A program made the position numbers and the translations under genes. A model generated the notes under the pieces. It was not told the origin of the DNA. It ran no database searches and saw only the letters and a program-made list of their open reading frames with translations. Shown here piece after piece: positions 1-6,376 of a DNA stretch of 8,118 bases (position 1 is its first letter; every line of letters begins with the position of its first letter). The DNA comes from an uncultured Bacillota bacterium (lineage in GTDB: Bacteria > Bacillota_I > Bacilli_A > Izemoplasmatales > UBA1188): NCBI GenBank assembly GCA_900318975.1, contig ONMY01000034.1, positions 1-8,118 on the forward strand, written 5' to 3'.

Positions 1-479
1 CTATCAATTAAAGTATTTCCTTTAACCTTTAGTGAAGGTGAGTCTGTATGACAACCTGCGATATTAAATGCATAATTTGATAAATCGCCAACATTAAAGG
101 CAATTATTGCACTTTCATTTTTTAAAATATAGTATTTACTATTCTTTTCTAAATTCCATTTATTGAAATCGTATAATCTTTTAAATCCGTTATCGATTAA
201 TATTGATTCAATGTTTCTTGTTGAATGATATGAAGTATATGAAAGAGATAGAAAATCTTCTATACCATTAATTTTTTCATAAGGTGCTTCTTTTGTTTTA
301 GATGTTAATTCTTCTTTTGATACCTTTAAAATAATAGAAAGTTTTTCTAATAATTCATTAGATGGAACTCTATCGCTCGTCTCATATGATGCGTAAGCTT
401 GTTGAGAAAGATTAAGATAATTTGCTACTTCTTTTTGTGTTAAATTTGCTTTATTACGATAATATTTTAAGTTTTCCAT
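1..479 (-). CDS. XRE-type HTH fused to M18 aminopeptidase (3' end outside window)
   Basis: I translated this frame by hand from ATG at 479. It stays open for 159 codons to the window edge, so the C-terminus is missing. Residues about 4-58 form an XRE/HTH_3 DNA-binding domain: LTQKEVANYL, a turn, then SQQAYASYE and a third-helix region ending VPSNELLEKLSIIL. Residues about 70-159 match the start of an M18 (aspartyl aminopeptidase/Ape1) domain: a FLSLSYTSYHS segment (family FL..SPT.fH), GF..L..F.KW.L, KYYI..N.SAIIAF.VG, then AGCHTDSPSLKVK. H144 in HTDSP corresponds to a zinc ligand in M18 enzymes, and the remaining ligands lie beyond the edge. AGAGGT at 484-489, four bases before the ATG, supports the start. 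M18 enzymes remove N-terminal residues from peptides in the cytoplasm and are normally not fused to DNA-binding domains. The fusion therefore suggests a self-regulating or peptide-sensing peptidase, which is inference. The gene diverges from the small gene at 594. Confidence 0.85.
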   Translation of the reverse strand, partial: MENLKYYRNKANLTQKEVANYLNLSQQAYASYETSDRVPSNELLEKLSIILKVSKEELTSKTKEAPYEKINGIEDFLSLSYTSYHSTRNIESILIDNGFKRLYDFNKWNLEKNSKYYILKNESAIIAFNVGDLSNYAFNIAGCHTDSPSLKVKGNTLID

Positions 480-499
480 ACTTACCTCTTGTATTTTAT

Positions 500-529
500 A
501 TTATATTTATATTGTATACCATATTTTAA
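500..529 (-). promoter_or_regulatory. candidate promoter for the XRE-M18 gene
   Basis: On the minus strand a perfect TATAAT (500-505) lies 18 bp from TTAAAA (524-529), a four-of-six match to TTGACA. It is correctly placed upstream of the AGAGGT ribosome site. In DNA this AT-rich a -10 match alone is weak evidence. Confidence 0.4.
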
Positions 530-544
530 AATAATGATATACAA
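512..544. promoter_or_regulatory. inverted repeat, likely operator between divergent genes
   Basis: Two 11-base arms, TTGTATACCAT (512-522) and the reverse complement of 534-544 (TTGTATATCAT), match at ten positions and are separated by 11 bases. The spacer holds the palindrome ATTTTAAAAT almost exactly at the centre. The repeat covers the -35 and spacer region of the leftward candidate promoter and ends one base before the candidate -35 of the rightward one. XRE-family proteins commonly bind such dyads beside their own genes. The nearby HTH-M18 product is the natural candidate ligand, but binding is inferred. Confidence 0.5.
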
Positions 545-593: not shown

Positions 594-866
594 ATGGATT
601 TAAAAGAGATAGATATTAATCTTGCGATAAAATTATTAAAAAAGGATATTATACTCTATTCAATTATCGATAAAAAAGAAACTTTCTTTAAATATGAAAA
701 CAATAATATAATGATAAAGAATAGCAATTCTATATATTATTTAATAGAATATGATTTTCTTCAATTATTTAAGAATATCGTGTTTTCTATATATGAAAAT
801 GATGAAGAATTAATCGATGAAGAAAGAGACAGAGAATACTACTCTATAGATAAAATAAAAAAGTGA
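594..866 (+). CDS. small hypothetical protein, 90 aa
   Basis: I do not recognise this protein. It has 90 residues, is lysine-, isoleucine- and acid-rich, and has no signal peptide, membrane helix or cysteine motif, so it is probably cytoplasmic. A helical start (DINLAIKLLKKDIILYSI) is followed by likely strands around FFKYENNNIMI and NSIYYLI, then YDFLQLFKNIVFSIYEN and a very acidic stretch (DEELIDEERDREYY) before a lysine tail. The frame is open further upstream, to 489, but ATG 594 is preferred. It follows AAAGGTGG at 583-590, and earlier starts would lie in the promoter and operator. It is the only plus-strand gene here and is divergent from the XRE-M18 gene, so shared control through the inverted repeat at 512-544 is plausible. 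It stops with TGA inside the shared terminator stem. Confidence 0.7.
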   Translation: MDLKEIDINLAIKLLKKDIILYSIIDKKETFFKYENNNIMIKNSNSIYYLIEYDFLQLFKNIVFSIYENDEELIDEERDREYYSIDKIKK

Positions 867-4072: not shown

Positions 4073-5332
4073 TTATACATTATTTAATACTGTTGTATAG
4101 GCATCCCTTATGATACCTACTAAAACTTCTTTAGAAAGAACTGAAGCATCTTCTATTTTAAACCAAATCTTATGATCTTCATATTTGTCTTTACCGATTA
4201 GTGGGTATTGAATAATAAGTCTTATTGCTTTATCGAGTTCTAGTCTAAATGACATTGTCCTATTATGGTTTGATAGAGTTAAGAATTTAACTTTATTTAC
4301 ATAATAATCAACATATGCATCACCCTTAACCATTGAACAATTCTTGAATCCAAAATCAGTATCATAAATTTCATTTAGATTTGATTGTTCGAAGAGGATT
4401 TGTTTTATAACTGCTTTTTCTTCTATTTGTGTTTCAAGAACTTCCTCTTGTCTTGGAAGATCGTAGAGTGGATCATCAATTCTTTCATGATTTTCAAATG
4501 GAGATGAATATGGAGCAAGTGGTTTAATTCTTTCTGTTTCACGCTTTTCAAGTTCTTTTTCTTCTTTATCGTTCTTTTTTGCAACAACTAAAGCAATTAC
4601 AAAATATAAAACAAATGCTAAAATTGAAAGAATTAAGAATGTATATGTTTCAATTTTGTATGTGATTACGATTTCTTCTAAACCTGTATTTGAATAGATA
4701 TTCTTAAAGAGTGATGCAACACCTGGAAGGTTATTATAAAAATCATTAAAGCCTTTAAGTGAGAGGAAACATAGGATTACTAGGAGTAGCCAGTTTAGAG
4801 TTTTTACAAAGCCACCTCTTTTATATGCTTTATTGAATAATGCAATCATGAGCTGTAGTAATAATAAAACTAGGAATATTGCTGCACCTGTTAAGAATGA
4901 TTGATAGGTTTTAAGATATGGAAGATTATTAATAAATCTACCAAGACCATAGTAATCATTATCAATTATCATAAATCCTTCTGGAGATTTATTTATAAAA
5001 GACATTAGATTATGAACAAACCCAGCAAGTGATGCACTAATACCAATGTAGTAGATAATTCCATAAGCTGTGTTTTGTGTTGATTTTTTAGTAATATTAT
5101 TAGGACTATTCTTTTTTTCAACAGTTGAAACGATTAAGAAAATAAATGATATCACAATGGCAATGAGTGGAAATAGTAATAATTTAAATGATCCATGATT
5201 TGTGAAAAATCTTCCAATAAAACCAAGACCAATTTTTGAAATTACACTTGATACTTTTTGCCAAGGAAGGAAAAGTCCTAGAGCTATTAAAAAGAATATT
5301 ACGTTAAAGAATCTATTAAAAAACTTTTTCAT
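4073..5332 (-). CDS. six-helix membrane protein with YjbR-like C-terminal tail
   Basis: This 419-residue protein is not one I can name. Six likely membrane helices lie at about 7-24, 50-70, 90-112, 146-166, 177-194 and 228-250. The lysine-rich start and the KKNDKEEKELEKRETER stretch after the last helix place both ends in the cytoplasm. A charged proline-containing linker (about 251-305) leads to a soluble domain (about 306-417). Within it, FRLELDKAIRLIIQYPLIGKD, then KIWFKIEDASV, then LVGIIRDAYTTV resembles the MmcQ/YjbR pattern (strand, helix, hWi.v, helix ending in SY..V). This is a fold-level resemblance judged by eye. AAAGGAG lies about ten bases before the ATG. The gene has its own promoter and terminator, so it is probably monocistronic. 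A membrane sensor or scaffold is possible, but no function can be stated. Confidence 0.78.
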   Translation of the reverse strand: MKKFFNRFFNVIFFLIALGLFLPWQKVSSVISKIGLGFIGRFFTNHGSFKLLLFPLIAIVISFIFLIVSTVEKKNSPNNITKKSTQNTAYGIIYYIGISASLAGFVHNLMSFINKSPEGFMIIDNDYYGLGRFINNLPYLKTYQSFLTGAAIFLVLLLLQLMIALFNKAYKRGGFVKTLNWLLLVILCFLSLKGFNDFYNNLPGVASLFKNIYSNTGLEEIVITYKIETYTFLILSILAFVLYFVIALVVAKKNDKEEKELEKRETERIKPLAPYSSPFENHERIDDPLYDLPRQEEVLETQIEEKAVIKQILFEQSNLNEIYDTDFGFKNCSMVKGDAYVDYYVNKVKFLTLSNHNRTMSFRLELDKAIRLIIQYPLIGKDKYEDHKIWFKIEDASVLSKEVLVGIIRDAYTTVLNNV

Positions 5333-5467: not shown

Positions 5468-6376
5468 CTAAATCTCGGGATATTCTTTGATAACTGGGTA
5501 GTTTATATAATATGGGTCATCAAAGATACTAAATTCTTCTCCATCCATATCAACATATATCATTACAAGATATCCTTTATTATAATTATAGAGGAATAAT
5601 ACATCGCTTGATGCATTATCATCAGTCACGAATTTTTTAGTCGACATATCTCCTCTTGCCATATAATTATATCCTGATATTTTAAGTGGAGAATCAAAGA
5701 ACATACCACTTTCAACATATTCACTATAGAAAGCATTATTCTTATCACTTGATGAAAATTCTATATATGTATATAGCACACTATCTTGTGATGAAATAAC
5801 GGATATCTCATCGATATAAAAGTTAAATACTTTATTCTCATCACTTGGATCACTAAAGAAGTTAGAATAATAGTAATTATTTTCTGTAAAATGTTTTTTT
5901 GGCACACTGACAAGCGCTCTAAAAGAATTAAGTGAGATAAGTGCCATTATTATACCAAACACTATCATTCCGATACCATTTTTGTATTTATTTCTCCTAT
6001 AAATGATTCCAAATACAAGCATGAGAATGCAAAAAGTAAATGATACTAAATAGATAAAAGATAGTGAAACAAATCTTCTAACATCAAATAGATTTCCAGA
6101 AATTAGTGCTATAAAAAATACAATATTTTGTATTAAAAATGTAACGATAGAAAGTACAGTAAATAGTCTTCCAAAGGCATGAATTTTCTTACTCTTTTCA
6201 CTATAATCATAAGATGAATCACTGCTAGTTGAATTATATGTGTTACTTCTTCCATTTGATATAGTAGAGTTATTATTTGAAGATTCATCTCTTACAACCT
6301 TTGCGCCACAATTTGGGCAATATGTTGGAGCACTTTCTTTATCACCTAAATCATATCCACAGTATCTGCAGTACAT
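5468..6376 (-). CDS. zinc-ribbon membrane protein
   Basis: This 302-residue protein begins with a rubredoxin-like zinc ribbon: CRYCG (C3, C6) and CPNCG (C20, C23) form a four-cysteine site. A Ser/Asn-rich linker (about 31-62) follows, then three likely membrane helices at about 71-93, 102-126 and 134-152. With the ribbon in the cytoplasm this puts the C-terminal 150 residues outside. That part is rich in Tyr, Phe and Asp with predicted strands (VFNFYIDEISVIS, VLYTYIEFSS, LVMIYVDMDGEEFSIF) and matches no domain I know. The zinc_ribbon_2 start is common in Firmicute membrane proteins of unknown role. A perfect AGGAGG at 6383-6388, six bases before the ATG, fixes the start. That site begins six bases after the tRNA CCA end, and no promoter is visible between them, so cotranscription with tRNA-Leu and argS is likely. 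The stop is TAG. Confidence 0.85.
   Translation of the reverse strand: MYCRYCGYDLGDKESAPTYCPNCGAKVVRDESSNNNSTISNGRSNTYNSTSSDSSYDYSEKSKKIHAFGRLFTVLSIVTFLIQNIVFFIALISGNLFDVRRFVSLSFIYLVSFTFCILMLVFGIIYRRNKYKNGIGMIVFGIIMALISLNSFRALVSVPKKHFTENNYYYSNFFSDPSDENKVFNFYIDEISVISSQDSVLYTYIEFSSSDKNNAFYSEYVESGMFFDSPLKISGYNYMARGDMSTKKFVTDDNASSDVLFLYNYNKGYLVMIYVDMDGEEFSIFDDPYYINYPVIKEYPEI

Follow-up and report, generated by a model that had tools for sequence, protein, structure and literature searches.

We propose that a fusion protein, in which a Cro/C1-type (XRE) DNA-binding domain precedes an M18 aminopeptidase, is likely to repress its own gene through TTGTAT/ATACAA sites in its promoter, and that a second group of fusions, with an HTH_17 domain and TTGCCG sites, likely shares this design; we give this reading a probability of roughly 60%. 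From the sequences, the XRE-M18 proteins are best read as self-regulating "trigger enzymes", each likely to be an active peptidase and, at the same time, a repressor of its own gene. What is new here is the constancy of a QQ pair in the recognition helix, the arrays of half-sites in the promoters, and the HTH_17-M18 kind of fusion with a motif of its own; no paper on XRE-M18 or HTH_17-M18 fusions was found among open-licence papers. To our knowledge, the sensing of intracellular peptide supply by bacteria is poorly understood. If our reading is true, a peptidase serving as its own repressor would link its substrate directly to the control of a gene within a single protein and be read out at a single promoter, and for this reason the question can be tested with one purified protein and 114 bp of DNA.

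The window, i.e. the whole analysed stretch of 8,118 nucleotides, is one complete contig (G000:C170) of a 1.3-Mb genome in 295 contigs, and the fusion gene occupies positions 3-479 on its minus strand as the first 159 codons of an open frame cut by the contig end. A first-pass annotation made from these letters had described an XRE helix-turn-helix at residues 4-58 in frame with the N-terminal part of M18, and Pfam bears it out. The HTH_3 domain (PF01381, 50 bits against a cut-off of 23; 306-470, minus strand) is complete, with model positions 1-55 of 55 aligned, and is followed by the N-terminal part of the M18 domain (PF02127, residues 76-154, 67.8 bits against 24; 18-254, minus strand), where the sequence HTDSP (residues 144-148; 36-50, minus strand) carries the first metal ligand, H144. 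A near-identical intact copy, P0002, is 487 residues long, agrees with the window fragment at 155 of 159 residues and has no stop or frameshift past the contig edge; PF02127 covers its residues 76-472, and the NCBIfam M18 model NF002759 scores 399 bits on it (cut-off 356). The fusion also exists beyond this assembly, namely intact in three congeners (L002-L004; 71, 67 and 55% identity over the 159-residue fragment), in a Christensenella-labelled MAG, UBA1260 (L032, 51%), and in G676, and 49 full-length XRE-M18 proteins (over 470 aa, with the XRE domain) occur among the best 120 of 5488 protein-database matches. That the contig end cuts the gene might suggest an artefact of assembly or frame, which is ruled out by the intact fusions in several genomes and assemblies and whose probability we regard as practically negligible.

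The window fragment shows the first metal ligand only, and the remaining ones, which the annotation had proposed to look for past the edge, were read from P0002 and are all present there. In P0002 numbering the ligands are H144, D283, E312/E313, D358 and H450; an alignment of 35 proteins, of which 29 are fused and 6 standalone, shows no change at any of them, and the motifs around the five ligands occur in 48, 48, 49, 49 and 49 of the 49 XRE fusions. Stand-alone M18 enzymes from Pseudomonas aeruginosa (PDB 3wt4/4njr) and human (DNPEP, 4dyo) share with the fusion the fold, the five ligands and the full domain. We know of no N-terminal DNA-binding domain in these stand-alone enzymes, nor of any role for them in transcription. 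An AlphaFold model of P0002 has a mean pLDDT of 89.8, which falls to 79 at residues 51-60 and to 71 at residues 61-70, stretches that we read as a linker in the model, and a Foldseek search with it ranks M18 structures first (best E 7.8e-41). By correspondence of conserved motifs, we infer that the P0002 ligands match the five-ligand M18 signature H.D.E.D.H given in PMC3472314. Taken by its sequence, the M18 half of the XRE fusions is thus a likely active peptidase.

Proteins that join XRE to a metallopeptidase, in one chain or as a pair, are known from the ImmA/IrrE (M78) systems, including the spr1629 repressor/antitoxin family, where the peptidase belongs to another family (HEXXH) and its target is a repressor protein. 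The present fusion had been set apart from that type already at first sight, and rightly: Pfam scans of the window fragment and of P0002 gave no M78 match, which rules out an ImmA-like reading, and the window-type XRE part reaches only 20.7 of the 335 bits that the spr1629 model requires. Another likeness is PepA of Escherichia coli, which is of a different peptidase family (M17) and is not known to have an added helix-turn-helix domain. According to PMC6245113, PepA is an oligomeric metallo-aminopeptidase, called a trigger enzyme, that represses carAB; as an aminopeptidase and a repressor in one it is the nearest precedent for XRE-M18, but the target described there is carAB and not its own gene. 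Proteins of the CA_C2195 type combine a DUF4910 metallopeptidase-like part and a circularly permuted wHTH in one chain, with the HTH at the C-terminus and a proposed role in carbohydrate biosynthesis rather than a peptidase activity (PMC4000134).

The predicted recognition helix of the window protein (helix 26-34 in the model) starts with SQQAY (residues 25-29; 393-407, minus strand), and in all 49 XRE-M18 fusions this start reads (S/T)QQ(A/T/V/S)Y. None of 29 other XRE proteins has QQ at that helix position; these are the proteins of 30 loci that align above a score limit, mostly from related genomes and one from a Treponema-labelled record. In phage 434-type repressors, too, the recognition helix begins with QQ and the half-sites are of the ACAA/TTGT type; the 434 repressor itself reads ACAA.

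Sites of that kind stand in front of the fusion gene. On the gene strand, upstream of the start codon, the window promoter reads TTGTAT-N21-ATACAA-N17-ATACAA, which gives three predicted operator half-sites: TTGTAT at 539-544 (minus strand), ATACAA at 512-517 (plus strand) and ATACAA at 489-494 (plus strand), the last one beside a putative ribosome-binding site. The order and spacing are the same in the fusion promoters of the congeners G003 and G005, and the promoter of G002, set in a different neighbourhood, has three half-sites with another spacing and one of them turned round. In the four congeners the start of one half-site is 19-27 nt from that of the next, whereas the half-sites of 434 operators are closely spaced. 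Six XRE-fusion promoters contain together 15 copies of TTGTAT/ATACAA in 100 nt each, with 2.01 expected overall, and no 6-mer was as extreme in 1000 shuffle sets, although one genus supplies four of the six promoters, and shuffling does not correct for common ancestry. By promoter, three half-sites were counted in the window (a count reached in 32 of 4000 shuffles), G003 (4), G005 (2) and G002 (16), two in UBA1260 (101) and one in G676 (1202), i.e. the signal is weak in the Christensenella-type pair, where some half-sites, judged by eye, belong to a stem resembling a terminator or sit at a -35-like position. The window as a whole shows no enrichment of TTGTAT (14 copies against 10.8 expected, with 43 of 200 shuffles as high), and its unusual feature is the clustering of half-sites at 489-544. 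Promoter-like matches on the gene strand, at 552-523 and 529-500, cover half-sites 1 and 2, an overlap that weakly fits what a repressor needs, being one of consensus matches only.

A three-site pattern, modelled on these promoters, has one match each in G000 and G003 and two in G005; it has none in the other four of the seven genomes of the genus, including the fusion-bearing G002, and its reversed control matches nowhere in the seven. Since the pattern was written from the promoters it matches there by design, and only its rarity elsewhere is a test. The extra match in G005 (L129:1501-1552, contig C34) belongs to no fusion gene; it sits between a transposase-like frame and a YitT-like frame, both named by eye, and upstream of the latter.

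A set of 43 other M18 genes has on average 0.23 half-sites per 100 nt of upstream DNA (none in 34, one in 8, two in 1), or 0.24 (n=42) if an HTH_17 fusion counted among them (L117) is taken out, and for the 22 of these genes with less than 33% GC the average is 0.18. This comparison bears on the view that the XRE domain has lost its DNA binding and now helps in assembly or localisation, the repeats being ordinary promoter elements. Such a view would agree with the -35-like place which one half-site takes, by eye, in both UBA1260 and G676, and with P0016, a protein without the XRE domain that is nested in a clade of fused ones, from which it follows that the domain may be lost. The rarity of half-sites before other M18 genes, also in the poorest in GC, and the constancy of QQ in the recognition helix stand against it, and we consider it very improbable. 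The idea of the first-pass annotation that a repressor here carries its own peptidase gains, on the other hand, from the half-sites in its own promoter together with the constant QQ, which point to a probable autoregulator.

It would be possible to think that the protein controls its neighbours, more than itself. A divergent small gene of 90 aa with no Pfam match (594-866, plus strand) has a common intergenic region of 114 bp with the fusion gene, it is kept at the same place in G005 with 57% identity, and the array is common to both genes, so this gene could be the true target. Its place in G003 is, however, taken by an IS200/IS605-type pair (Y1 transposase and OrfB/TnpB-like; L118:6833-8414) between GNAT-like and fusion genes, and the neighbours differ in G002, G676 and UBA1260, yet G002 has its three half-sites; control of neighbours in preference to self-control is hence improbable in our opinion, to nearly the same degree as a loss of DNA binding. 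No conserved neighbour that may be a target was seen beyond the genus, except a LURP-one-like gene at both Christensenella-type loci: in G676 a LURP-one-related gene (Pfam LOR, L122:8301-8843) adjoins the fusion gene, and so does in UBA1260 a frame alike to it by eye (L032:1080-1583). As to the rest of the window, the frames 1420-2997, 4073-5332 and 5468-6376 (525, 419 and 302 aa) gave no Pfam or NCBIfam family above cut-off, and G003 contains, in the same order, frames whose starts are similar to theirs by eye.

A second kind of fusion came from the class sample, in which 85 of 395 genomes match the 159-residue profile (at most 9 candidates scored per genome). Only the four fused congeneric genomes match it from residue 1, and in the remaining 81 the match starts no earlier than residue 14, where that of G405 (14-154) begins; G405 has another DNA-binding domain ahead of M18. 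This is HTH_17, at 27.1 bits for a cut-off of 27, and two relatives score 30.5 and 31.7 bits. When the G405 protein was used as a query, a script pattern recognised an HTH_17-type N-terminus in 94 proteins among the best 120 of 7991 matches. The five ligand motifs, as written for the search, are found in 80, 88, 95, 96 and 93 of 96 long proteins of this group, less uniformly than in the XRE group, and some ligands may therefore vary. In a sample of G405's family the fusion is present in 5 of 146 genomes. Loci with this kind of fusion and TTGCCG repeats upstream are L117:1366-2844 (minus strand) and L131-L134. A sixth match, in G360 (L135, contig C9), comprises the HTH_17 part only, at the start of a 928-aa frame, which indicates that this domain may head other proteins as well.

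The promoters of the five HTH_17 fusions contain TTGCCG 8 times in 130 nt each, where 0.16 are expected, and no 6-mer was as extreme in 1000 shuffle sets; most of these promoters, as of the six XRE ones, are from close relatives. Four of the eight copies fall within TTGCCGAT, and a single full TTGCCG is present in each of the L132 and L134 promoters. The motifs keep to their domains: TTGCCG was counted once in front of 42 other M18 genes and never before the XRE fusions, and TTGTAT/ATACAA once before the five HTH_17 fusions. A two-site TTGCCG pattern, written from three promoters and hence matching there by design, matches those three only among 10 genomes, so that 2 of the 5 fusion-bearing genomes searched do not match, and its reversed control gave 0. 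A motif of its own in its own promoter, for each kind of fused domain, is the trace to be expected of autoregulation by the fused protein, and general promoter features would not easily produce such domain-specific motifs.

In a joint tree, built on 74 rows chosen by hand (24 of the 49 XRE fusions, 19 of the 94 HTH_17 ones and 31 standalone proteins) the two kinds of fusions stand on two sides of a 100/100 split with standalone proteins on both, which does not favour one origin for them; the HTH_17 fusions apparently had a separate origin on a distant M18 branch. Two recruitments of DNA-binding domains by one enzyme family, apparently separate, suggest that evolution repeats this design. The claim that M18 enzymes are usually stand-alone fits the genome samples and needs qualification in that two sizeable fused groups exist.

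In the mechanism that we suggest, the XRE domain would bind the TTGTAT/ATACAA sites, the M18 half would be enzymatically active, and the protein would form the twelve-subunit particle usual for M18, which may let several DNA-binding heads grip the site array together. As the enzyme half of the XRE group looks intact, the protein is likely both peptidase and repressor. Peptide sensing, which the first-pass annotation had also raised, is our guess by analogy: a peptide substrate or a metal in the active site might alter DNA binding in such a way that an abundance of peptides leads to production of the enzyme. HTH_17 fusions would likely use the same design with TTGCCG sites. The alternative is a plain control of dosage, where the XRE domain autorepresses and M18 only lends its oligomer, with no signalling and no peptide sensed. 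The half-site arrays in the promoters agree with it, and so does the report, in PMC6245113, that the catalysis of PepA is not required for its transcriptional role; against it, two different DNA-binding domains were joined, apparently separately, to the same enzyme family, which indirectly fits some useful property of the M18 enzyme, and we hold dosage control without sensing to be unlikely. Tentative, and short of an even chance, is a wider extension of autoregulation in which M18 particles have become, at least two times and with different DNA-binding domains, many-headed transcription factors: self-compartmentalised peptidases whose active sites gauge the peptide load of the cell and which adjust their own expression via a private operator array.

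As to how widespread the XRE fusions are, in the window's order they were found in 4 of 90 genomes, all in its own genus (4 of 7), and in the order of the Christensenella-labelled genome in 2 of 396 sampled genomes, that genome included (at most 9 candidates scored per genome). A phylum sample gave a strong M18 match in 63 of 392 genomes, all from query residue 37 or later (4 candidates scored per genome). Besides the fusion, a separate M18 frame (454-465 aa) is present in the window's genome and in each of the three fused congeners. In a tree of 84 rows (the 49 fusions, 2 N-terminally short proteins and 33 of 68 standalone ones picked by hand, P0054 being left out) one clade unites 38 fusions with P0016 and P0086, and a second comprises 13 (with the 2 short ones); the tree requires at least 4 changes, and a single clade of all XRE fusions is not rejected (p-AU 0.187). 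P0054, the protein left out, is listed as a single chain of 706 aa that combines M18 with a DDE transposase domain (PF01609), and an M18 match at G266:C1:1449741-1449992 lies inside an open frame of 2101 aa, possibly another fusion.
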